Shown here piece after piece: positions 49,880 through 64,000 of a stretch of 64,000 nucleotides of DNA. Below the pieces are notes generated by a model. The model ran no database searches and had not been told where the DNA came from. It saw only the letters and a program-made list of their open reading frames with translations. Position numbers and translations under genes: made by a program. How positions within the stretch are numbered: the first letter of the stretch is position 1; each line of letters starts with the position of its first letter. The stretch is from Allomeiothermus silvanus DSM 9946 (GTDB lineage: Bacteria > Deinococcota > Deinococci > Deinococcales > Thermaceae): contig NC_014212.1 in NCBI RefSeq assembly GCF_000092125.1, positions 2,128,001 through 2,192,000 of the forward strand, given 5' to 3'.

Positions 49880-51138
49880 CTAATACCGGGCGGTTTGGGT
49901 CTGGCCCGCACACCCACTGGCACCGCCCTGGTGCGTGGCGCCCTACCCGGCGAGGTGGTGCGGGTGGGGCTCCGGCCTCGCAAAAACCACCTCGAGGGCC
50001 AGGTGTTGGAAATCCTCCAGGCCCACCCCGAGCGCTATCCCGAAGCGCTTCCCCCGACCGCTGATCTTCCCCTTTATTACCCTGCCCAGCTACCTCTCAA
50101 ACAGGGCTTCGTGCACGAAGCCCTGGTGCGCATTGCCAAGCTCGAGTTCCCCCTCTCCCCCATCCAACCCTCACCGGATGCCCTTAACTACCGCACCGCC
50201 GCACAGTATGCGCTGCACCCGCTGGGCGGACTCGCCTACCGCAAACCCAACAGCCATGAACTGGCAAAAATCGAGCAGGACCCTCTAATCGCACCTCCCT
50301 TGCAGGAGGCCTTCCGGCTATTGTCACACGGGGCGCTCTCGAGCCTAGACGAAGTGGTGTTCCGGGGTAGCTTGTACGAGGGGCGAACCCTGGTGGGCTT
50401 GATCGGCGGGGAAGCCCGCTTTTGCAGGCGCACCGCCCAGACTTTGGTACAAGAGGGCCTGGCCGGGGTGGTCTGGGCCGAGGCCAGCCCCAAAGGGCGC
50501 TTTCGGGGACGGGTGCAGCATTTGGCTGGGGAGAGGGGCTTGCTCGAGGAGTACGGCGGGGTGCTCTCGACGGTGGATGCGCAAAGCTTTGCCCAGGTCA
50601 ACCCCAAAGCCGCCGGGCTTTTGTACCGGGAAGCCGCCCAGATCGCGGGGGGTGGGGAAAGAGCGGTGGAGCTTTACGCCGGGAGCGGGGTCTTGGGGCT
50701 CCACCTGGCTGAGCGGTTTTGCGAGGTGATCGCTATCGAGATCAACAAGGACGCCGTAAGGCGCGGAGAGGCCGACCGGGAGCGGCTGGGGGTGAGTCAC
50801 CTGCGCTTTCACCGCGGGGACTCGAGAGAGTTATACACCTTTACCCCCGCCGATTTGGTCGCGGTGGACCCGCCCCGCTCCGGGCTATCGGCGGAGGTTA
50901 TGCAGGCGATTGTGCAGGCCCGCCCTAAACGGGTGCTGTACCTCTCCTGCGACCCCGCGACCTGGGCCAGGGATGTGCGGGGGCTCACCCAGGCCGGTTA
51001 CCGGCTCGCTTTCGCCCGGCCTTACGACTTCTACCCCTTTACCCATCATGTGGAGGTACTAAGTCTGCTCGAGAGGTGAGCGCAAAAGCTCTTCACCCAG
51101 TAGAGCACCACCGCAAAGCCAGGGGCTATACTCTGTCC

Positions 51139-51900
51139 ATGCTAGCCAAACGCATCATCCCTTGCCTGGACGTCCACGCCGGACGGGTGGTCAAGGGAAT
51201 CAACTTCGTAAACCTGCGGGATGCCGGAGACCCGGTGCAAGCCGCCCACGCCTACGACCGAGCGGGAGCCGATGAGTTGGTATTTCTCGACATCACCGCT
51301 ACCCATGAGGAGCGGAAAATCCTGCTCGATGTGGTTTCGCAAGTGGCGGAGCAGGTGTTTATCCCGCTCACCGTGGGGGGCGGGGTACGCAGCCTGGAGG
51401 ACGCCCGCGCCCTTCTGGGGGCCGGGGCCGACAAGGTCTCGGTAAACTCAGCGGCGGTCCGGCGGCCTGAACTCATCCGGGAACTCTCCGATCACTTTGG
51501 CTCACAGGCGGTGGTGTTGGCGATTGACGCCCGCCAAAGCCCCGATGGCTGGGAAGTTTATGTGGCGGGGGGACGCACCCCCACCGGGCTCGACGCGGTG
51601 CGGTGGGCCGAGCGCGGGGTGGAGCTAGGGGCGGGGGAAATCCTGCTCACCAGCATGGACAAAGACGGAACCAAGGCCGGCTATGACCTCCCGCTCACCC
51701 GGACTATCCGCGAGGCGGTGGGGGTTCCCCTGATCGCCTCGGGCGGAGCGGGAAAGCGCGAAGATTTCGCAGCGGTGCTCGAGGTCTGCGACGCCGCCCT
51801 AGCTGCTTCGGTGTTCCACTTTGGGGAAATTCCCATCCCCGAACTCAAGGAGTACCTGGCTTCAAGGGGTTTCCCTATCCGCATCGAGGTGCCCGCATGA
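51139..51900 (+). CDS. hisF: imidazole glycerol phosphate synthase, cyclase subunit
   Basis: 253 residues starting [26 protein letters not shown], the (beta/alpha)8 barrel that makes the imidazole ring with ammonia from HisH. Catalytic Asp residues lie in CLDVHAG (Asp11) and VLAIDARQS (about Asp130). ATG 51139 follows TATACT (51127-51132) by 6 nt, a leaderless start; it overlaps hisIE by 4 bp. Confidence 0.97.
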
Positions 51901-52544
51901 ATATCGAGGAGGTGCATTTTGACGCCAACGGCCTGGTGCCGGTGATCGTACAGGACGCTGTAAGCGGACAGGTGTTGACCCTGGCCTATGCCAACCGGGA
52001 GGCCCTAGCCAAAACCCTCGAGACCCGCCAAAGCACCTTCTGGAGCCGCAGCCGGGGCGAGCTTTGGGTCAAAGGAGCCATCTCCGGCAACACCCAAGAG
52101 GTGCTGGAAGTGGTACTGGATTGCGACCAGGATGCGGTGCTCTACCGGGTGATCCCTACCGGCCCAGCCTGCCATACCGGGGCCGAGACCTGTTTTCACC
52201 ACCCGGTTACTGCAGAAACCGCGCCTCCCCCTTTGGGCGAAGTGCTGGAAAAGGTCTACCGCACCCTCCGCTCCCGGCTCCGCGAGCGCCCCGAGGGCTC
52301 TTATGTGGTAAAGATGCACGATGCGGGTCTCGACCGCATCCTCAAGAAGATCGGGGAGGAAGCTGGAGAAGTTATCATCGCCGCGAAGAACGGTAGCCGG
52401 GAAGAACTCGCCTGGGAAGCCTCGGACCTGCTTTTTCACCTGCTCTTTACGTTAACCGAGCTGGGCCTGAGCCCTCAGGATCTGGCTCGAGTGCTCTGGG
52501 AACGCAACCAAAAAAGCACCTCCATCCCTGCCGAGGGTGGCTGA
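51897..52544 (+). CDS. hisIE: bifunctional phosphoribosyl-AMP cyclohydrolase / phosphoribosyl-ATP diphosphatase
   Basis: 215 residues. HisI part: [31 protein letters not shown] and zinc cysteines in [27 protein letters not shown]. HisE part from about residue 115: [46 protein letters not shown]. It performs steps 2 and 3 of histidine synthesis. The ATGA overlap couples it to hisF; hisH, hisA and the other his genes are not here. Confidence 0.96.
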
Positions 52545-52635
52545 GGCAAAAGGGCCTGCAGCGTTCACCGACCTCTTCCCACCCTGGCTCCCTGGTAGCT
52601 TTTCGCGTAGGGCTAAGGGGCTTCGGTCCCCAAAA

Positions 52636-52663
52636 CGGTAGCGGTCTGTTGGAACCGCTACCG
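52636..52663. repeat. 10-bp perfect inverted repeat between hisIE and glpX
   Basis: CGGTAGCGGT and ACCGCTACCG with an 8-bp loop, 25 bp upstream of the glpX -10 box. No U tract follows, so it may be an operator for glpX or a weak terminator of the his genes. Confidence 0.5.
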
Positions 52664-52699
52664 CGGTGAGGCTGGCTTGGGCTTTGGTAGGCTCAATTT

Positions 52700-53668
52700 A
52701 TGGACATCGAACGCCTATTGGTACTCGAGGTCGCCCGCGTCACCGAACAAGCCGCTCTGGCTGCTAGCCGTTTGGCCGGAAAAGGCGATAAAGAAGCCGT
52801 GGACGCCGCCGGTACCGAGGCCATGCGCCAGGTGCTAGGCGAGCTACCTATCAACGGCACGGTGGTGATCGGCGAGGGCGAGATGGACGAGGCCCCCATG
52901 CTCTATATCGGGGAGAAGCTCGGAATGGGTGGCCCCGAGGTAGATATCGCGGTGGACCCGGTGGAGGGCACCACCATCACCGCCAAGGGGCTGCCCAACT
53001 CCATCACCGTCATCGCCATCAGCGAGAAAGGCGGGCTCCTCCACGCCCCCGACATGTACATGGAGAAGCTGGTGGTGGCCCCCCCAGCGGTGGGAAAGGT
53101 GAGCCTGGAGTACCCGGTCAAGGCCAACCTGCGCTTGATCGCTGAATCGCTCCAACGCGGCGTGGAAGACCTGGTGGTAGTGGTGCTGGATCGCCCTCGC
53201 CACGAGAAGCTCATCAAGGAGATCCGCGACGCCGGGGCCCGGGTCAAGCTGATCGGGGACGGAGATGTGGTGGCGGCGCTGGCGGTAGCGGTGCGCGGCA
53301 CTGGGGTTCATGCTTTGATGGGCAGCGGCGGAGCCCCCGAGGGGGTGTTGGCCGCAGCGGCCCTCAAGTGCCTGGGGGGCGAGATTCAGGCTAAATTCCT
53401 GCCCGCCGACGACACCCAGCGCGAACGGATGCAGGCCATGGGGGCCAACGAACACCAGATCTACCGCACCAACGATCTAGCCCCCGGCAAAGAGATCGTC
53501 TTTGCGGCAACCGGGATCACCCACGGGGATATCCTCGAGGGGGTGCGCTTTTTCGGGGGTGGGGCCCGTACCCACTCCATCGTGATGGGGTACAAGACCC
53601 GGGTGGTGCGCTTTATTGACAGCATCCACCTCTTCGAGCGCGGGGCCAGGGTGACGATTCGGGTCTAA
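52700..53668 (+). CDS. glpX: class II fructose-1,6-bisphosphatase
   Basis: 322 residues of the GlpX family, hydrolysing fructose-1,6-bisphosphate in gluconeogenesis. Metal and phosphate sites: [37 protein letters not shown], and [27 protein letters not shown] at 52688-52693 stands 6 nt before ATG (leaderless). Its 3' end abuts a transposase remnant. Confidence 0.95.
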
Positions 53669-53675
53669 TAGGCCG

Positions 53676-53831
53676 TTGCCCAAGCGGTGGGTGGTGGAAC
53701 GGACCTTTGCCTGGCTGGGGCGAAACCGACGGCTGGGAAAAGATTACGAGTACTATCCTGAGGTAACGGAAGCCTGGATGTATTTAGGTATGATACGCTT
53801 GTTGGTGAAGCGGCTGGCCAGGGCCGCGTAG
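53676..53831 (+). pseudogene. IS5-type transposase C-terminal remnant
   Basis: Fifty-one codons ending in TAG read [20 protein letters not shown], then [21 protein letters not shown], the C-terminal catalytic-Glu region of IS5/IS427-type transposases. Nothing of the N-terminal domain is present. It starts 7 bp after the glpX stop and marks the left border of the haem operon block. Confidence 0.85.
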
Positions 53832-53865
53832 CCTCCTGTGGAGGACTTTTACAACAGTTTCTCAC

Positions 53866-54626
<761 letters not shown>

Positions 54627-54627
<1 letters not shown>

Positions 54628-55652
54628 CACCGGGCCACCTCCCGCTTGAAGCGCAGCAACAGAGCGATGAAGAAGGGCGCGCCCAGCAGGCTGGTCACCA
54701 CGCCCACCGGCAGCTCGGCAGGGGCCGCCGCCGTGCGGGCGATCAGGTCGGCCAGCACGCTTAGGATGGCCCCCAGCAGCACCGAGCCCGGCAGCAGGTA
54801 GCGGTGGTCAGGCCCGGCCAGCAGGCGGAAGAGGTGGGGGGCCACCAGCCCGATGAAGCCCACGCTGCCCGCCGCAGCCACTACGGTGCCCACCGCCAGC
54901 GCGGCCAGGGCCACGGCCTTGCGCTTGAAGGGCTCGAGGCTCACCCCCAGGTGGAAGGCCTCCGACTCGCCCAGCACCAGCGCGTTCAGGGGGCGCGACA
55001 GGCGCAGCAGGCCCCAGACCGACAGCAGCGCGGTGGGCGCGATGGCCGCCAGCAGGCCCCAGGTGGCCCCGCCGTAGCCGCCCAGGGTCCAGAAGGTCAG
55101 GCTCCTGAGCTGCTCGTCGGTAGCGCGGCTCACCAGCAGCCCGATCAGGGCCCCGGCCAGCGCGTTGAGGGCGATCCCGGCGAGCAGCAGGGTCAGCACC
55201 TGCACCCGCCCGCCGCTGCTGGCCAGCGTCCACACCGCCAGCGTCGCCAGCAGCCCGCCCGCGAAGGCCATGAAGGGCAGGGCGTAGACCTCGAGCACCC
55301 CCGCCCCCGGCAGCGCCACGATGAACGCAGCGGCCCCCAGCGCGGCCCCCGCGCTGACCCCGATCAGGCCGGGGTCGGCCAGGGGGTTACGGAACAGGCC
55401 CTGCATCACCGCCCCGGACAGGGCCAGCAGCGCCCCGGCCACCACCGCCAGCAGCACCCGGGGAAAGCGCACCGACATCAGCACCGCGTAGGCGGGGTTC
55501 TCGCGCTCCCACAGGACGCGCGGGATGTCCTGGGGCGCGACGGCGTAGGCCCCGCTGCCCGCCGCCAGCAGCACCACCAGCGGCAGCACCGCCCCTAGAC
55601 CCAGCAGGGCCAGCCGGTAGCGGGAAAAAACTTTGGGCAACGCGCTCTGCAC
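54627..55652 (-). CDS. hmuU: haem ABC transporter permease (FecCD family)
   Basis: 341 residues, about ten helices. Family segments: VRFPRVLLAVVAGALLALSGAVMQGLFRNPLADPGLIGVSAGA and GSVGFIGLVAPHLFRLLAGPDHRYLLPGS, quoted in part. GTG start at 55652, four bases after the DUF3386 stop. It is the inner membrane channel for the HmuT-bound ligand. Confidence 0.92.
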
Positions 55653-55655
55653 GGC

Positions 55656-56303
55656 TCAACCCAGCAGCCGGTGATGGCTCAGGCACAGCTCGCGCACGCT
55701 GAGACCCTGCTCGTCGTGGCGCACCACCTGGCGGCGCTCGGGCAGCCAGACCCCCGCCACCTCGGTGTAGGCGTCGGCGAAGCTCTCCACGGCCTCGAGG
55801 CTCCCGTCGGCCCGGCGGTGGATCACGGTGAAGTGCGCGGGGAGGTACTTGGCGCCCGCCTCGGCGTAGGCGTGCAGGTGAATGCGGAAGAAGGAAGCGG
55901 GGAAGTGGCGCTCGACCAGCCGGACCCGCCCCTCCTGCACCCACAGCGCCGAGCGCAGGGGGTCCTCGAGCTCGAGGCGGGTGCCCAGCGGGCCCTCCGC
56001 TGTGAGGCGCATGGGGTACCGCCCCTCGCCCTGGGCGAAGGGGCGGGGTGAGCGGTGGGCCAGCATGGAAGCCAGCTCCCGCCGCGGCCACTCGAACAGG
56101 TCCTCCACCAAGGGCTCGGCCCCGCCGACCGCCAGGTACAGCTCGATGTCCCCGGGTGTGCGGGCCACCACGCGCCCGCGGTGCCAGCTACCGCCCAGGT
56201 AGAGCTCGAGGTCGGCACTGAAGCCGCCGAAGCCCTCGGGCAGGGTGTAGGCGCCCGCGCGGGCGAGCTCGAGCAGCTCGTAGGCCGAGGCGGTGGCGTT
56301 CAT
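55656..56303 (-). CDS. DUF3386-like protein within haem operon
   Basis: 215 residues. The start SAYELLELARAGAYTLPEGFGGFSADLELYLGG and the end FADAYTEVAGVWLPERRQVVRHDEQGLSVRELCLSHHRLL fit DUF3386, a family I associate mainly with cyanobacteria and iron loci. It has no signal peptide, so is cytoplasmic. Histidines (HFPASFFRIHLHAYAEAG, HFTVIHRR) are numerous and could bind haem. It overlaps hmuT by 4 bp. A role in haem handling after import is inferred from position only. Confidence 0.72.
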   Translation of the reverse strand: MNATASAYELLELARAGAYTLPEGFGGFSADLELYLGGSWHRGRVVARTPGDIELYLAVGGAEPLVEDLFEWPRRELASMLAHRSPRPFAQGEGRYPMRLTAEGPLGTRLELEDPLRSALWVQEGRVRLVERHFPASFFRIHLHAYAEAGAKYLPAHFTVIHRRADGSLEAVESFADAYTEVAGVWLPERRQVVRHDEQGLSVRELCLSHHRLLG

Positions 56304-57211
56304 AGCTCCTCCTTGGGCCCGGCGACGTAGAGCCCGCTGCGCTCGTAGGCCCCGATGAACAGGTCGAGCGCGGCCTGCCCGGTGCGGGGGCCGAAGCCGC
56401 CCAGGTACAGGTCGTCGATGGCCACCACCCGCCCGGCCTGCCCGGCGGGGGTCTGCAACACGCCGGGAAGCTTCCTCAGGCCCTCCACCCCGCCGATGCT
56501 CTCGAGGCCCCTGGTGAAGACCACGATCAGGTCGGGCTGGGCCGCCACCACCGCCTCGGCGGTCATCTGGGTGCAGTCCTTGATGCCCTTGGCCGCGTTG
56601 GCGATGCCCGCCAGCTCCATCATCCCCACCGGGTTTGAACCCTCCCCGCAGACAAAGGTGGTCTGGGGACCGCGCAGGTAGAGGAAAAGCCCCTTGAGCC
56701 GCGTGCGCTGCTGCGCGAGCTTGGAGCGCAGGGCCAGCAGATCGCGCTCCATGCGCCGGATTAGTTCTTCGCCGCGCTGCACGCGCCCCACCGCGGCGGC
56801 GATGGTGCGGATCTTCTCGCGGGCCCCCTCGAGGGTGGGCTTATCGGGCACGCGCACCACCCTCACCCCCGCACCCTCGATCTGCTCGAGAACCTGCGGC
56901 GGCTTGACATCCTCGCGCCCGAGCACCAGGGTGGGCCGCAGCGCCAGGATGCCCTCGGCGTTGAGCCGGAACTGGTACCCCACGCTGGGCAGCCGCAGCG
57001 CGGCCGCGGGGTAGTAGCTGCTGTCGTCGCGCCCCACCACCCGCTCGCCCACCCCCAGGGCGAAGAGGATCTCGGTGGTGGATCCGTTGAGGCTGACGAT
57101 GCGCTCAGTGGACCACACCGTGACGTTCTGGCCCCGCGCGTCCTTGACGGTGAAGGGTTGGGCCAGCGCCAGCCCCGCCAGCAGGGCCAGCGCCGCCGTG
57201 CCGCACCTCAT
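56300..57211 (-). CDS. hmuT: haem-binding periplasmic protein
   Basis: 303 residues from ATG 57211: signal peptide MRCGTAALALLAGLALAQP, then IVSLNGSTTEILFALGVGERVVGRDDSSYYPAAALRLPSVGYQ, given in part, which is the HmuT/ChuT cluster-A-2 binding protein pattern, and AIDDLYLGGFGPRTGQAALDLF near the end. It passes haem to HmuUV. ATG overlaps the stop of the monooxygenase gene. No TonB receptor gene is nearby. Confidence 0.9.
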   Translation of the reverse strand: MRCGTAALALLAGLALAQPFTVKDARGQNVTVWSTERIVSLNGSTTEILFALGVGERVVGRDDSSYYPAAALRLPSVGYQFRLNAEGILALRPTLVLGREDVKPPQVLEQIEGAGVRVVRVPDKPTLEGAREKIRTIAAAVGRVQRGEELIRRMERDLLALRSKLAQQRTRLKGLFLYLRGPQTTFVCGEGSNPVGMMELAGIANAAKGIKDCTQMTAEAVVAAQPDLIVVFTRGLESIGGVEGLRKLPGVLQTPAGQAGRVVAIDDLYLGGFGPRTGQAALDLFIGAYERSGLYVAGPKEEL

Positions 57212-57546
57212 CGGCCGACCTCCTGGGCCGGGGCTTCGGCGCTGTCGGTGAAGACCTCGTAGGTCTCGAGCTGGGAGTGCCCCCGGAAGACCTCGCGCGG
57301 CAGGGTGCCGCTGCGGGCGTGCCCCTCCTTGAACTCCGGGCTCTCCACCCAGCCCTCGAAGTGGGCCTGGCTCTCCCAAAAGGTCATCACCACGTAGGGC
57401 TGCTCGGCGGGGTTGGCGGGCCGCAAAACCAGGTTGCGGATAAAGCCGGGCATCCGGTCGACGAGCCGGGCACGGCGCTGGAAGTTCTCCTCGAATTGCC
57501 GGGTATATTCGGGGTTCACCGGAATGCGGTTCATGGTAACGAACAT
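57208..57546 (-). CDS. IsdG-like haem-degrading monooxygenase
   Basis: 112 residues of the antibiotic-biosynthesis-monooxygenase fold starting MFVTMNRIPVNPEY. The catalytic triad of IsdG/IsdI (Asn7, Trp67, His77) is matched by Asn6, Trp66 (FEGWVESPEF) and His76 (KEGHARSG), so haem cleavage is likely. First gene of the haem operon. GGAGG precedes ATG 57546. Cytoplasmic; releases iron from imported haem. Confidence 0.9.
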   Translation of the reverse strand: MFVTMNRIPVNPEYTRQFEENFQRRARLVDRMPGFIRNLVLRPANPAEQPYVVMTFWESQAHFEGWVESPEFKEGHARSGTLPREVFRGHSQLETYEVFTDSAEAPAQEVGR

Positions 57547-57567
57547 CCCTGACCTCCTCTAGAGCCA

Positions 57568-57643
57568 AGACTAGGACGAACGTCCATTAAAGTCAAGTAT
57601 TCCGGTCGGAATTTATGTATATTGAAAACGATAACTGTTATCG
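57568..57643 (-). promoter_or_regulatory. haem operon promoter with Fur-like box and two more palindromes
   Basis: On the minus strand TTGACT (57596-57591), 17-bp spacer, TAGTCT (57573-57568). The spacer holds the palindrome GGACG-AA-CGTCC (57574-57585). Upstream are ATTCCG-GT-CGGAAT (57599-57612) and a perfect 7-1-7 palindrome CGATAAC-T-GTTATCG (57629-57643), which resembles the Fur box. Iron plus a second signal, perhaps haem, may control the operon. Confidence 0.75.
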
Positions 57644-57731
57644 CTACCGGGAGCGGCCCAGCGGCCATCCACGAAGACCACGGCGTCGGCCGAGTTGGTG
57701 CGCACCTCAAGGGGTATTTGTGAGAATTGCT

Positions 57732-58139
57732 CTATAGACCAATATTCACCCCGAACGCCCCACCCAGGCCGAAGCCAAATCGTGGGGAGAAAAAGCCCAG
57801 CAGGGGCAGACCCAGGTTGAGGTAGGTCCCTACCACCCCGCGCACCCCGTAGTTCCCCTGGTTGAGCAAGGAGATCGCCGGGCCGGTTCCGAAGAAAGCC
57901 CCTCCGCCCGCGTAGAGGTCGGTCAGGGGAATTTTGGCCAGCACGTCCACCCCGCCGCCCAAAGCACCACTTCCAAAGGGGTTGTACCCTGCATAGGCGC
58001 GTCCGTCCACTAACAAAGGAACCAAGGGAAAACGCACGCCAGCGTTAATACCGAAGGAGCTGCCCAGCGTTACCTGCAGGCTTTGGGCCATGGCCGGAAT
58101 CGAGAGGATCAAAGCTAGAGCCATCAAATAACGTTTCAT
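57732..58139 (-). CDS. small exported protein, possible beta-barrel
   Basis: 135 residues from ATG 58139: signal peptide MKRYLMALALILSIPAMAQ, then glycine/aromatic-rich alternating sequence (LGSSFGINAGVRFPLVPLLV, RAYAGYNPFGSGALGGGV, GFFSPRFGFGLGGAFGVNIGL), as in small outer-membrane barrels. The C-terminus ends in NIGL rather than a classic aromatic residue. TATACT (58152-58147, minus) lies 7 nt before ATG. I do not recognise the family. Confidence 0.72.
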   Translation of the reverse strand: MKRYLMALALILSIPAMAQSLQVTLGSSFGINAGVRFPLVPLLVDGRAYAGYNPFGSGALGGGVDVLAKIPLTDLYAGGGAFFGTGPAISLLNQGNYGVRGVVGTYLNLGLPLLGFFSPRFGFGLGGAFGVNIGL

Positions 58140-58153
58140 GCCCATCAGTATAC

Positions 58154-58486
58154 CTAGCCTTCCCAAGCCAACAGACTTAGCCTTTCCAAAGCCTTCTCGC
58201 GCGGTATAACCTGGGCCTGGAGCATCCCCGGCTGATACCCCACTACGATCTGATTCACCCCCAGACGACCCAGAGCAACCAGATACGTTTCCTTGAGGGC
58301 ATAGCCCTCGAGCTTCCCCACCTGCATCCCCGCAGCAGTAGGAGTCTTCTCCATGAAGGCTCGAGCCTCGTCCTGGCTAAGCCAAATCGTGGAGAGCCTT
58401 TGCCCCAAGGACTCCAGAACAAGGTGCTCGCCCGCAACTTGCGGGTCCTCGAGGACGTACCAGGTAGCTTTCAAAAGATCATCCAT
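58154..58486 (-). CDS. conserved hypothetical protein
   Basis: 110 residues, acidic N-terminus MDDLLKATWYVLEDPQVAGEHLVLESLG, then LSTIWLSQDEARAFMEKT and VNQIVVGYQPGMLQAQVIPREKALERL. No signal peptide or motif is recognised; it is probably a small alpha/beta protein of Thermales. It ends just before the promoter of the exported-protein gene and may contain its -35 region. Confidence 0.65.
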   Translation of the reverse strand: MDDLLKATWYVLEDPQVAGEHLVLESLGQRLSTIWLSQDEARAFMEKTPTAAGMQVGKLEGYALKETYLVALGRLGVNQIVVGYQPGMLQAQVIPREKALERLSLLAWEG

Positions 58487-58542
58487 GCTAAGCTTGTGTA
58501 ATTCTTCACGATAACTTGCTCGTGAATAAAATCCCTGTTGGT

Positions 58543-59559
58543 CTAGGACGCGACCGCAGGGTGGATCTCCCCCATCTCCACTAAGGTCTCAGCAATCTGC
58601 ACCGCGTTGAGGGCCGCCCCCTTGAGCAGTTGGTCCCCCGCGACGAAGAAATCTAGCCCGTTCTCAAAGACCAGATTTTTGCGAATACGGCCCACCTCAA
58701 CGTTGTATTTGCCGCTCGCCCTAAGCGGCAATGGATATTGCAGGTTAGCCGGGTCATCCACCAAGTCCACCCCGGGCGCCTGACGCAGCACCTCGCGGGC
58801 GGCCTCGGGGGTAATCGGGCGCTCGAATTCCGCCGTCACCGCTTCCGAATGGACCCGCAGGGTAGGGACCCGCACCGCTGTGCAGGAGAGCTTCACCGTG
58901 TCGTCACCCATGATCTTCTGGCTTTCCCACAACACTTTCATCTCCTCTTTGGTGTAGCCGTTGTCCTGGAAAGCATCGATGTGGGGAATGACATTGAAAG
59001 GCAAGGGGTGGGCAAAAGTCCGGCTCTGAAGCGGCTTTCCCGCCAGGAAATCGCGCGTGCCCTCCAGCAATTCCTGCATCCCACTAGCTCCCGCCCCGCT
59101 CGAGGACTGATAGGTGCTCACGATGACCCGCTTGGCCTTGAAGGCCCTATGGAGCGGATAAAGGGCCATCAGCAGGATCGCGGTGGTGCAGTTGGGGTTG
59201 GCGATGAGGTTTTGGTGTCCCCGGATGGCCTGAGCGTTGATCTCCGGTACAATCAGCGGAACCCAAGGCTCATAGCGAAAAGCCGAAGAGTTATCGATTA
59301 CGATAGACTTTTTGGCCCAGATAGGAGCATATTGCTTGGAGAGGCTACCCCCAGCGCTAGCCAGCACGATATCTACCGGCAAGGGGCCTTCGGGGAGGGC
59401 TTCCACCAAGTACTCCGTGTTGCGAAAGCTCAGGGTCTTCCCGGCAGAACGCGCCGAAGCGTAGAGCCTTAGCTCCGAAAGCGGGAAATGGCGCTGCTCG
59501 AGCACCCTCAATAGCTCTTGCCCTACCGCACCGGTTGCACCTACGATGGCGATTTTCAT
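58543..59559 (-). CDS. asd: aspartate-semialdehyde dehydrogenase
   Basis: 338 residues starting [27 protein letters not shown], reducing aspartyl phosphate to the semialdehyde, the branch to lysine, threonine and methionine. Catalytic Cys is in [16 protein letters not shown]; other motifs are [13 protein letters not shown] and [24 protein letters not shown] precedes ATG 59559. A threonine-type attenuator sits directly upstream. Confidence 0.96.
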
Positions 59560-59574
59560 CTGCTCCTCCTCAAC

Positions 59575-59627
59575 AAAAAACCCGCCTGGATAGGCAGGTG
59601 AGGGCGACGACACGAAGGGTCGTCGCC
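59575..59627 (-). promoter_or_regulatory. asd attenuator: hairpin plus intrinsic terminator
   Basis: On the minus strand, hairpin A is a perfect 9-bp stem GGCGACGAC/GTCGTCGCC (59627-59619 and 59611-59603). Hairpin B is ACCTGCCT/AGGCGGGT (59599-59592, 59587-59580) with one G-U pair, followed by six U, a standard terminator 16 bp before asd. The 5' arm of A begins within the leader stop codon, so a ribosome paused on the threonine codons would cover it. The freed 3' arm (UCGCC) could pair with GGCGG of B, but this antiterminator is short. Confidence 0.7.
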
Positions 59628-59653
59628 TAGGTAGTGGTGGTATACCAAACCAT
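59627..59653 (-). CDS. asd leader peptide MVWYTTTT
   Basis: ATG 59653 to TAG: ATG GTT TGG TAT ACC ACC, then ACT ACC TAG. Four consecutive threonine codons end an eight-residue peptide, as in thr operon leaders. It starts 8 nt after the -10 box TAAGGT, so the transcript has at most a minimal 5' leader. Confidence 0.75.
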
Positions 59654-59661
59654 TGACTCCG

Positions 59662-59690
59662 ACCTTACACGCCATGCCCCTAAAAGTCAA
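59662..59690 (-). promoter_or_regulatory. asd promoter overlapping the glyS 3' end
   Basis: TTGACT (59690-59685), 17-bp spacer and TAAGGT (59667-59662) on the minus strand. The -35 box begins at the last base before the glyS stop codon. Confidence 0.7.
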
Positions 59691-61214
59691 TTAGCGCAGC
59701 CGTTCTTGCAGATACTGGGGCAACTCTTTTACATGCACCCGCTCCTGTTGCATGGTGTCCCGATCCCGCACGGTAACGGTATCCATTAGGGTTGTGCTGC
59801 CGTCTTGGCTCTTGCCGATGGTGTCGTAATCTACCGTTACGCAGAAAGGCGTGCCTACCTCGTCGTGACGGCGGTAGGCCTTGCCGATGTTGCCGGTATC
59901 CTCGTAGAGCACACGGCCCATCCCCAGGGCCTGGAGCTTGCGTTTCAGGTCTTTGGCGTAGCGGGTGATCTCCTCTTTGTTCTTGGCGAGTGGGATCACC
60001 GCAACCTTGATGGGGGCCAGGTGAGGCTTGAGCTTGAGGACGATGCGCTCCTCGCCGGACTCGAGCTTCTCCCGCGTATATGCCTCGGAGAGCACCGCCA
60101 ACACCCCCCGGTCCACCCCCGCGGAGGGCTCGATGACGAAGGGCACAATCCACTTGCCCGTCTCGGGGTCCTGGATGGCCAGCTTGGCGGTGGAGTCGGT
60201 ATTCTCCATCACCCTGGCCTGAATCCCCAACTCGCTTTGTGCCTTGGTATGCGAACCCAGGTCGTAGTCGGAGCGGTTGGCTATCCCCTCGATCTCCTCG
60301 AAGCCCAGGGTGGGGAAGTTGTACAAAAGGTCATACGTGCGCTTAGAGTAGTGGGCCAGGTCCTCCTTGGGCACGTCCAGCACCTGGATCTGCGCGCGCG
60401 GAATCCCCTGCGCCTCCCACCACTCTAGCCGCGTCTCAAGCCAGTGCTGGTGCCAGTGCTCGTCGGTTCCTGGCTTGACAAAGTACTCGATCTCCATCTG
60501 CTCGAACTCGCGCACCCGAAAGATAAAGTTGCGCGGGGTGATCTCGTTACGAAACGCCTTACCGATCTGGGCGATGCCAAAAGGCAGGCGCCGGCTGGTG
60601 GAGTCGAGGACGTTCTTGAAGTTTACGAAAATGCCCTGTGCGGTCTCGGGGCGCAAGTAGCCGTAGGAATCCTCATCCGCCACAGGGCCGATGGTGGTCT
60701 TGAACATCATGTTGAAGGGCCGGGGCGGAGTCCAATCGCCGGGGGCACCGTCGGCGGGGTCAACCACTCGGGCGGCGTTCATGGCCTGGGCCGCCCGTTC
60801 CGGGTCGGCCATCAGCGCCGCGACCAGGGTGGCTATGTCGGTGTTTGGCTCGAGGCCCATCCCCACGGCCACCGCTGCGCATACCCCCGGTTTTTGCTCT
60901 TTGAGCAGGTGGTCCAGCCGGTAGCGCTTCTTGCTGATGCGGTTGTCGATCAGCGGATCGGCAAAAGTGGCCTCGTGGCCTGAGTAGTGCAGCACCAGCC
61001 GGTGGGTGAGGATCGAGGCATCTAGCCCTTCCATGTCGTCGCGCTCGTAAACGTTGGCCCTCCACCAGGCCGCCTTGAGGTTGTTTTTGAGTTCAACCCC
61101 CAACGGGCCGTAGTCGTAGGTGCCCTGGAGACCCCCATAGATCTCCGAGCCCTGGAAGATAAAGCCCCGGCGCTTGCACAGAGAAACCAGTTCGTCCATC
61201 GTTTCAGCAGGCAT
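59691..61214 (-). CDS. glyS: glycyl-tRNA synthetase (class II, dimeric)
   Basis: 507 residues of the alpha2 glycyl-tRNA synthetase type, as in T. thermophilus. Motifs: [22 protein letters not shown] at the N-terminus, [25 protein letters not shown] (motif 2 region), [22 protein letters not shown] (motif 3), then the anticodon-binding domain [25 protein letters not shown] precedes ATG. Regulated by the T-box upstream. Other genomes may call this gene glyQS. Confidence 0.96.
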
Positions 61215-61292
61215 AGAAGCTCCTTTCGGTCACGCTAAACCCTGAGCCAGGCCTTGTCGTGCGCTCAGCGTTTGGCCCGACCGCCGGGGAAC

Positions 61293-61535
61293 AAAAAACG
61301 CCCCCGGCAAGATGCCTGGGGACGAATAGTTAGTCACTACTCGCGGTTCCACCCCAGTTCTCGAGGGAATACCCTCGAGCCCTTTAGCTTGCGTTGGCCT
61401 CGACTAGGAGCAAGCTCCCAGCATTCAGCAACTTTCCGCCGCCCTTCCCCTGGCTCTGGCTACCTGGCTCACACCCTCCCAGACTCGCTGAAGCTGAGCC
61501 CCAGGGTACTCCTGCGGATCAACGCCCTTCCATGA
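61293..61535 (-). promoter_or_regulatory. glycine T-box leader of glyS
   Basis: On the minus strand the leader has: an AGGAGUA segment (about 61514-61508) and its partner GAA (61447-61445) forming the specifier loop, with GGC (61443-61441), a glycine codon, next to it; stem III CTCGAGGG/CCCTCGAG (61379-61360); the T-box sequence GGGTGGAACCGCG (61354-61342), which pairs with the tRNA acceptor end; and a terminator stem (61324-61299) with six U (61298-61293). Uncharged tRNA-Gly would favour readthrough into glyS. The 5' limit is approximate. Confidence 0.9.
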
Positions 61536-61706
61536 TGAACAAAAAAAGCTGCCCGGTCAATCGCCTTAAACCGAAGAAGTGGCCTCTGGTTACAAGCCAC
61601 TCCCGTGGTTGGGCTATGCCGTGTAATCGGCCGCTCAAACATCCCATCTGGGACTGCGTAGTATATCATCAGAAGTGAGGAGCCTTGAATACGAAGGGGG
61701 TAGCTC

Positions 61707-63911
61707 TTGAACAGGTACGATGATCGCGCCAGGCTGGTATTCCACTACGCGAGGGAGGAGGGCAGTCGCCTCGGGCATAGCATGATCGGCCCGGAGCATC
61801 TCCTCTTAGGCCTGATGCGCGAGGGGGGCACCGCCGCGCGCATCCTGATGGAGTACGGGGCGACCCTCGAGGCCATGAGGCGAATGGTCGAAGAGCTCGT
61901 CGGGCGAGGGGAGGGTTCGCGTAGCGGTGAGCCGCCGGCAATCACCCCCAGGGCCCGGCGAGTGATGGAACTGGCGGGTGCCGAGGCCCGCAACATGGGC
62001 TCTCCAGTTATCGGCACGGAGCATATCCTCCTGGGCATCATCCGTGAGGGCGATGGTATCGCCTACCGCATCATGACCCACTACGCCAAGGACGTGGATA
62101 CCATCCGCTGGCGGGTGCTGTCGCAGGCTGGTGAAACCACCAAGGAGAAGGCCGTGGCGACTCCCTTCCTCGACGAATACGGACGCGACCTCACCAAGGA
62201 AGCTCGAGAAGGCAAGCTTGACCCAGTAATCGGCAGGGCGGAAGAGATCAACCGGGTAATCCAAATTCTGGCCCGCCGTACTAAAAATAACCCGGTGCTG
62301 GTAGGCGACCCCGGCGTGGGCAAAACCGCCATCGTAGAGGGGCTAGCGCAAGCCATCATCGAGGGGCGGGTGCCCCCCGTACTGCGCGGGGCCCGCATCG
62401 TTTCGGTGGACCTAGCCGGGGTGGTGGCGGGAACCAAATACCGCGGCGAGTTCGAAGAGCGGCTGCGGCAGATTATCGAGGAGCTCAAGAACGCCAAAGT
62501 GGTAGCGTTTATAGATGAGCTTCACACCCTGATCGGGGCGGGCGGAGCGGAAGGCACGCTCGACGCGGCCAATATCCTCAAGCCACCGCTCTCACGGGGT
62601 GAGATCCAGGTCATCGGGGCCACTACGACGGGCGAATACCACCGTTATATCGAGAAAGACGCCGCCCTCGAGCGCCGTTTCCAGCCGGTGATCGTGCTCG
62701 AGCCCACCCCCGAAGAAACCAGCGAAATCTTAAGGGGCTTGCGTCCTCGCTACGAGGCTCACCACGGGGTGGTGATCCCCGACGAGATTCTGGATCTCTC
62801 CGTTAAGATCGGCATCCGTAGCTTGCCGGGCCGCAACTTCCCCGATAAGGCCATCGACCTCATCGACGAGGCTGCCAGCCGGGTTCGGCTCAACGCTTCT
62901 TTGGGCCTCCCGGTAGCTGAGGACGAGGACGGCACCCCCCTGGTAAGCCGCGAGGACATCGAGGCGGTGGTGGATAGCTGGGGTGGCGTGTACGTGGACG
63001 ATAAGGACGATCAGAAACTCTTCGGGCTGGAGGACGAACTCAAAAAACGGGTCATCGGCCAAGATGAGGCTGTAGAGGCCTTGGTGGCTGCCCTCCGGCG
63101 CAGCCGGGTAGGCTTGGGCGGGCGGACTCGGGTCGCAGCCAGCTTCCTGTTCGTAGGTTCGTCAGGGGTCGGTAAAACGCACTTGGCCAAAGCCCTGGCC
63201 GAGGTCCTCTTCGGCTCCGAGCGGGCCTTGGTGCGCTTTGATATGAGCGAGTTCCAAGAGCCGCACTCCATCTCCAAGCTGATCGGGGCCCCTCCTGGCT
63301 ACGTGGGTTACGAGCAGGGGGGTCGCCTCACCGAGGCGGTGCGCCGTTCTCCGTTTAGCGTAGTGCTCCTCGACGAGATCGAAAAAGCCCACCCCGATAT
63401 CTATAACACCTTCTTACAAGTGCTGGACGAGGGCCGCCTGACCGACGGGCTAGGCCGCACGGTGGACTTCCGGCGGGTCATCCTGATCATGACCTCCAAC
63501 ACCGGCTTCAACGTGGGCCCCGGTATCGGCTTCACCAGCCGCGAGGTAGACACCGAAAGCCCGCTCAAAGCGATGTTTACCCCGGAGTTTTTGGACCGGC
63601 TCGATGAGGTGATCCGCTTCCGCACCTTGAATGAGGCAGAGCTGATTCAGGTAACCCAGAACATGCTAGAGGACATCGCTCAGGAGCTGGCCAGCCGCGA
63701 GAAGACGGTGCGCTTCGACCCGGCCATCGCCGCCTGGTTAGTCGAACAAGCACCCAAGAACGGCTCGACCCGGGCCCTGCGCAACCTGATTCGCGAGAAG
63801 GTAGAAGACCCGCTCTCGCTGGCCCTGCTGACCCGCCCCGGTCGGACTCTGCTGGTCACCCTCAAAGACGGGGAGATCGCCTTCGAGGAAGAAGAAGTCA
63901 GTTTGGTCTAA
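61707..63911 (+). CDS. clpC: ClpC/ClpA-type AAA+ unfoldase lacking a long middle domain
   Basis: 734 residues from TTG 61707 (GAAGGGGG upstream; start matches homologues). Two Clp_N repeats (about 1-140), AAA-1 with Walker A GDPGVGKT (200-207) and AAA-2 with Walker A GSSGVGKT (484-491). The ClpP-docking loop GIGF (606-609) is present, so it should feed ClpP. Only about 40 residues separate AAA-1 from the GQDEA start of AAA-2, so the coiled-coil M-domain of ClpC is missing, making it ClpA-like in layout. ClpP is not adjacent. Confidence 0.92.
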
Positions 63912-63924
63912 GCCGAAAAGCCTC

Positions 63925-63952
63925 AGGTGGGGTGATGATCCCCACCTTTTTT
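63925..63952 (+). terminator. intrinsic terminator of clpC
   Basis: Perfect 8-bp stem AGGTGGGG/CCCCACCT, 7-nt loop and TTTTTT, 14 bp after the clpC stop codon. Nothing further is recognisable in the last 48 bases. Confidence 0.9.
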
Positions 63953-64000
63953 ATCACCAAGCTTGGGGACGTAGCTCCGTCAGAGAAGATAGCCGGTCAC

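Follow-up and report, generated by a model that had tools for sequence, protein, structure and literature searches.

The asd gene of the hot-spring bacterium M. silvanus DSM 9946 is preceded by a leader that consists of a short ORF ending in a run of Thr codons, a hairpin beginning in its stop codon (hairpin 1), and an intrinsic terminator. Based on comparisons across the Deinococcota, sensing of charged tRNA-Thr by this leader is well supported. Because an alternative antiterminator pairing is missing, we do not group it with the classical thr attenuators; it is a variant of ribosome-mediated attenuation that lacks one defining classical feature. The leader lies in a window of 64,000 nucleotides (positions 2,128,001 to 2,192,000 of NC_014212.1) on the 3,249,394-base contig of a genome of 3,721,669 bases in three contigs. 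A preliminary description had reported a promoter, a Thr leader, a stop-codon hairpin, and a six-U terminator before asd, and sequence, folding, and conservation in 22/22 genomes locate all of them where it had put them. In window coordinates, the features are as follows.

59690-59662, minus strand, promoter: −35 box TTGACT (59690-59685), 17-nt spacer, and −10 box TAAGGT (59667-59662).
59653-59627, minus strand, leader ORF: ATG GTT TGG TAT ACC ACC ACT ACC TAG.
59650-59637, minus strand, predicted operator: GTTTGGTATACCAC, a copy of the palindrome TTGGTATACCAA overlapping codons 2-6.
59641-59630, minus strand, regulatory codons: ACC ACC ACT ACC (Thr5-Thr8).
59627-59603, minus strand, hairpin 1: 9 bp, arms GGCGACGAC and GTCGTCGCC, 5' end at the stop-codon G.
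59599-59575, minus strand, intrinsic terminator: 8-bp stem, 4-nt loop, and U6, from folding and a terminator scan.
59570-59563, minus strand, Shine-Dalgarno sequence of asd: AGGAGGAG.
59559-58543, minus strand, asd, the putative regulated gene: aspartate-semialdehyde dehydrogenase, named by sequence recognition rather than profile search, with known orthologues.

In transcript coordinates, with the A of the ATG as 1, the ORF spans 1-27, hairpin 1 27-51, the terminator 55-74, and the U tract 74-79. The leader folds with a z score of −5.5 (0/200 shuffles equally good), and its terminator was picked up by the terminator scan. A generic promoter scan missed the promoter because the −10 box of M. 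silvanus matches the consensus poorly; the promoter is backed by comparison with g1 and g3 relatives, which have TTGAC[TA]TT, a 17-nt spacer, a better −10 box, and an equal distance. The ATG at 59653 lies 8 nt past the −10 box in M. silvanus, and the asd leader would therefore be practically leaderless. The start codon lies 6 nt past the −10 box in Calidithermus, and ATG or GTG starts are found 6 to 8 nt after it across the leaders compared, with the transcription start taken from sequence position. Given normal start-site choice, the 5' UTR of the leader mRNA would be 0 to 2 nt. In M. silvanus, glyS (window 59691-61214) ends directly before the asd promoter. The −35 box starts at the base after the glyS stop codon, and asd might thus also be transcribed by read-through from glyS. 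In an Rfam search of window positions 50000-64000, the leader, which is only about 80 nt long, matched no family at gathering score, threonine leader and T-box included.

asd was present in 50/50 family genomes and in 103 of the 111 Deinococcota genomes searched. In the Meiothermus/Calidithermus clade (g1-g3), the Thr run, stop codon, hairpin, and terminator are kept in 22/22 asd leaders, and by sequence comparison this conservation exceeds chance. All 22 leaders have three to five consecutive Thr codons beside the stop codon; the Thr codons are ACC (60), ACT (25), ACA (1), and ACG (1), i.e., ACC or ACT in 85/87, and the stop codons are TAG (12), TAA (8), and TGA (2). The g1-g3 peptides range from MVWYTTT to MVWYTTTTT, some with one extra residue (S, A, P, G, or R); in the Calidithermus leader, MSLARTTTT, the other residues are replaced and the Thr run is retained. 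The leader also precedes asd in five genomes of two other families, namely, three in f3 (MNVWYTTTTTI, MQFWNTTTTTK, and MSQRFNNTTTI) and two in f2 (MKLASHICNIMITP and MKFDSSTSNTTIF), of which the latter carry other Asp-family codons (NTTI and NIMIT). The f2/f3 leaders at L205, L350, and L204 mix Asn, Ile, and Met codons with Thr, as if several aspartate-family end products were sensed. The earlier proposal of a threonine-sensing leader before asd is thus supported by the Thr run, which all 22 clade genomes and some genomes outside the family retain, and it also withstood the check for nonconservation of the run in close relatives. A covariance model of asd and related leaders, of which the M. 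silvanus leader was itself part, returned the M. silvanus site as the sole match in that genome (E = 8.9e-22) and one strong match per g1-g3 genome, located at asd. Weak matches of a hairpin-plus-terminator model (R2) were, among those inspected, ordinary terminators or in-gene hairpins, except for asd of G051. The leader was absent from the Thermus-type asd loci read (27 loci in g4 and g5; L024-L050), and no convincing Thr leader was found at the asd loci of families f4 (four loci) and f5 (six loci). In Thermus, asd comes after glyS or other ORFs. The leader was either lost in Thermus or gained elsewhere.

The covariance model also found a leader, MKIQSSTPQIIIF followed by a stop codon, before ilvA in the f2 genome G051 (L315:1459-1552). 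This gene encodes a biosynthetic threonine ammonia-lyase (TIGR01124, E = 9e-230), and its leader has ATT ATT ATT (Ile-Ile-Ile) as regulatory codons and a 12-bp hairpin that begins at the stop codon and is separated from the terminator by a linker of 1 nt. This leader is known from one genome, and none like it was found at ilvA of G050, G052, and G053. In the leaders compared, codon identity follows the regulated gene; the Ile codons at ilvA strongly suggest that the signal is carried by the codons rather than by the peptide.

Hairpin 1 covaries: 13 distinct hairpins are fully paired, both sides have changed in 12 cells, and 0/500 shuffles scored as high. These compensatory changes support that hairpin 1 is under selection. 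In leaders with more or fewer codons, it shifts along with the stop codon. The linker that joins it to the terminator is −1 to 4 nt long in the f1 and f3 asd leaders, with varying letters; in f1, this linker stays short even though asd begins anywhere from about 14 to 89 nt after the U tract. Based on a ribosome footprint of +15 from the P site, which is a general value and may not be that of Thermales, a ribosome stalled at Thr1 in these f1 and f3 leaders would have its edge 1 to 7 nt short of the 5' arm of hairpin 1, and this arm would end within −2 to +1 nt of where a ribosome at the stop codon has its edge. The f2 locus G052 shows a looser fold once the ribosome constraint is applied, with a linker of 6. 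Of the 54 terminator-like sites found in the scanned loci, a small null, 20 had a strong abutting or overlapping hairpin, and all 20 are these leaders (19 asd type and 1 thrS). The full arrangement of regulatory codons, stop codon, a hairpin of ~11 bp at the stop codon, a short linker, and a terminator was found at 27 asd loci, one ilvA locus, and one f4 thrS locus.

A pattern search for Thr-run leaders brought up Thr leaders before thrS. Most matches of this generic search were chance in-gene matches, and L158, which adjoins a transposase gene, and L192/L193, which is the start of an ordinary gene, were dropped on inspection. We read 20 thrS leaders in family f1 (among loci L208-L229 and L250-L256). 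That of M. silvanus, identified by reading the leader, is as follows.

G000:C1:965997-967922 and upstream (L225), thrS with its leader: MIWLCTTRRRGNF followed by a stop codon.

The f1 thrS leaders are practically leaderless ORFs with one to three Thr codons and a terminator ahead of the gene. With a ribosome stalled at Thr1, the thrS hairpin begins beyond the ribosome edge by 1 to 5 nt, and by exactly 1 nt in most leaders. It overlaps the 5' arm of the terminator by up to 5 nt in most of them and is predicted just to abut it in a few; thus, it is a genuine base-pairing antiterminator, whereas hairpin 1 of asd merely adjoins the terminator. The mean predicted probability of the basal terminator pairs at 55°C was 0.00 without a ribosome, 0.33 with a Thr1-stalled ribosome, and 0.93 with a ribosome at the stop codon (n = 20); M. 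silvanus DSM 9946 has its optimum at 55°C (PMC3035272). In this modeling, the thrS leader reads as an ordinary attenuator in which starvation would lead to antitermination. Thr-codon leaders before thrS were also found in f4 (G058 and G060), f3, and less clearly f2, and the f4 leader of G060 has the abutting form known from asd. At hom (PF00742) loci, we found no Thr leader.

The thrS and asd leaders have the same ribosome geometry, with the hairpin free at the Thr1 stall and covered at the stop codon. This common geometry points to hairpin 1 as the structure of the starved state; therefore, if control exists, the formed hairpin 1 must lower termination. The leader, Thr run, hairpin, terminator, geometry, and missing alternative pairing come from sequence comparison, and from these we infer the response to threonine itself; by analogy with the thrS sister leader, threonine scarcity would open asd transcription, and the leader would thus probably boost threonine synthesis when this amino acid runs short. 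We see about an even chance that the asd leader is a ribosome-mediated attenuator that reads charged tRNA-Thr and in which hairpin 1 sterically blocks the terminator. In this model, a 70S ribosome would start on the AUG at, or 1 to 2 nt from, the transcript 5' end. When Thr-tRNA is scarce, the ribosome would stall with the first Thr codon in its A site and its leading edge just upstream of hairpin 1, which would then form. When Thr-tRNA is plentiful, the ribosome would reach the stop codon with its footprint over the 5' arm of hairpin 1, so that the terminator alone would form and transcription would end before asd. The two asd hairpins share no bases and are separated by a linker of about 0 to 4 nt, and from this we infer that a formed hairpin 1 acts sterically, obstructing the terminator such that transcription continues into asd. 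We know of no established mechanism in which a neighboring RNA hairpin serves as a steric antiterminator. Termination requires the base of a terminator hairpin to invade RNA polymerase through its RNA exit channel, a step that a rigid upstream hairpin could hinder. Antitermination by proteins that fill the RNA exit channel is accepted for terminator hairpins (phage P7; PMC6624301). The steric step appears to be the weakest of the model, which would also require that the terminating ribosome dwells at the stop codon while RNA polymerase passes about 50 nt. As a counterpoint, a ribosome that stalls far into the Thr run would sit on hairpin 1, with the opposite effect.

The main rival of the steric model, a reading that we consider rather unlikely, has this opposite sign. 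Here, too, the leader would attenuate in response to Thr, but hairpin 1 would favor termination: a late stall would cover its 5' arm and cause less termination, and after ribosome release hairpin 1 would stack on the terminator and make termination efficient. The same comparative evidence of Thr sensing applies here, 0-nt linkers permit coaxial stacking, and a ribosome on the last Thr codon covers much of the 5' arm. However, a stall at the first Thr codon leaves hairpin 1 free, as do stalls at the first three Thr positions in f3, judged by distances; moreover, the thrS sister leaders follow the opposite logic, and the terminator is predicted to be stable without hairpin 1.

The 5' half of the leader is, as read from the sequence, a copy of a DNA operator, a point missed in the preliminary description. 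The block ATGGTTTGGTATACCAC is identical in 20/20 g1/g3 genomes, wobble positions included, and one f3 leader contains the greater part of it. In each g1-g3 genome and in most f3 genomes, there are 4 to 16 matches to its 11-mer core, TTGGTATACCA, compared with 0 to 3 for the reversed control; matches were counted on both strands, such that a full palindrome counts as two. Other copies in M. silvanus lie upstream of leuC and the gene for DAHP synthase/chorismate mutase (G000:C1:1605293 and 1250166; L282 and L265); in relatives, ilvC, aroG, and hom have copies upstream, and further copies are close to a glutamate synthase-like gene and to GntR-type regulators. A literature search for the operator sequence TTGGTATACCAA returned no paper, and this palindrome possibly marks an undescribed amino-acid regulon. 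The Calidithermus asd leaders have neither the operator nor VWY and keep four Thr codons and both hairpins. The conservation of VWY is thus probably explained by constraint on the DNA operator, not on the peptide, and the copy in the asd leader probably adds promoter-level control. That the operator, together with a constitutive terminator, is the real control and the Thr run incidental is very unlikely: the operator copy in the leader and the regulon-wide sites would fit, but Calidithermus retains the Thr codons and both hairpins without an operator, the f2 codons change along with the gene, and the Thr run is mostly outside the palindrome.

Attenuation by alternative pairing operates in the enterobacterial trp, his, and thr operons. 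In the corresponding reading for asd, a ribosome covering region 1 would let region 2 pair with region 3 or 4 and thereby destroy the terminator. A regulatory-codon leader, a hairpin, and a terminator do stand in the classical order; nevertheless, we regard this reading as less probable still. The 2:3 and 2:4 duplexes (−2.5 and −8.3 kcal/mol) are weaker than the terminator (about −14 kcal/mol), and a leader's own 2:3 and 2:4 pairs are no better than cross-species pairs (844 and 1,211 of 2,000 permutations as good). When region 1 was masked, the terminator persisted in all 22 species (P = 0.65-0.99). Among the pairings 2:3, 2:4, 1:3, 1:4, 0:3, and 0:2, none convincingly coevolves against the cross-species controls, in which only hairpin 1 and the terminator gave a clear signal; 1:3 was marginal (66/2,000). 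The pairing 0:2 (2/2,000; own range, −14.3 to −0.5) was rejected as probably driven by outliers, perhaps two Calidithermus sequences. The predicted probability of the basal terminator pairs at 55°C was 0.91 without a ribosome, 0.92 with a Thr1-stalled ribosome, and 0.89 with a ribosome at the stop codon, which argues that the terminator is insensitive to the ribosome via base pairing. Both hairpins coexist in equilibrium folding, and hairpin 1 would therefore not weaken the terminator thermodynamically. Thus, folding and permutation tests detected no antiterminator in the asd leaders whose base pairing would preclude the terminator. The preliminary description had called the antiterminator pairing short; masking, permutations, and ribosome-constrained folding detected none. 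Its suspicion that the mechanism may differ from the textbook case is supported by this result, and masking of hairpin 1 hardly affected the terminator.

Least likely of all is that the peptide, or the ~80-nt RNA left by termination, has a trans-acting role, as leader peptides of other bacteria reportedly can (PMC7298713), or that the leader ORF works via ribosome reinitiation on asd, as proposed for short leader-to-gene distances (PMC4833913): the peptide is not conserved beyond Thr where the operator is absent, leader and gene always occur in cis, and a terminator stands between the leader stop codon and asd.

From general knowledge, the enterobacterial thr attenuator (thrL) likewise combines a Thr-run ORF, a hairpin, an intrinsic terminator, and a threonine-pathway gene; in contrast, the Thermaceae leader has 7 to 9 codons, lies at the transcript 5' end, and has neither an antiterminator pairing nor an Rfam match. 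Leader-peptide attenuation was reportedly described by Tsubouchi et al. in 2005 for lysine in Thermus thermophilus; that system is of the same bacterial family and the same leader-peptide kind but concerns lysine genes. The mycobacterial leaderless Cys-rich upstream ORFs (cysA2), for which attenuation by the cognate amino acid has been proposed, resemble the asd leader in being short and having regulatory codons clustered at the end but belong to another phylum and another amino acid, and the parts of that paper drawn on here describe no such hairpin pair for cysA2 (PMC4633059). A 2010 survey of leader-peptide attenuators, the class to which the asd leader would belong, names Proteobacteria, Actinobacteria, and Firmicutes and makes no mention of Thermus, Deinococcus, asd, or thrS (PMC2965389).

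The usual explanation of attenuation rests on RNA pairings that exclude each other; the asd device, kept across three families, has all the other parts but no such pairing, and the thrS version has one. Thermales make lysine via the aminoadipate route; therefore, threonine, isoleucine, and methionine should be the main products that depend on Asd, and it makes sense for threonine to control it. Together, the asd and thrS leaders offer a clean natural test of steric switching of an intrinsic terminator by a neighboring hairpin. More broadly, and at somewhat less than even chances, the Thermales and their relatives may have a class of attenuator that is switched without alternative pairing, in which a hairpin under ribosome control touches the terminator and keeps it out of RNA polymerase and the codons of most leaders double as a DNA operator. 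If true, the Deinococcota would gain a codon-programmable leaderless attenuator, with Thr codons for asd and thrS and Ile codons for ilvA; the same bases would encode both an operator and a leader peptide, combining control by a repressor with control by tRNA.
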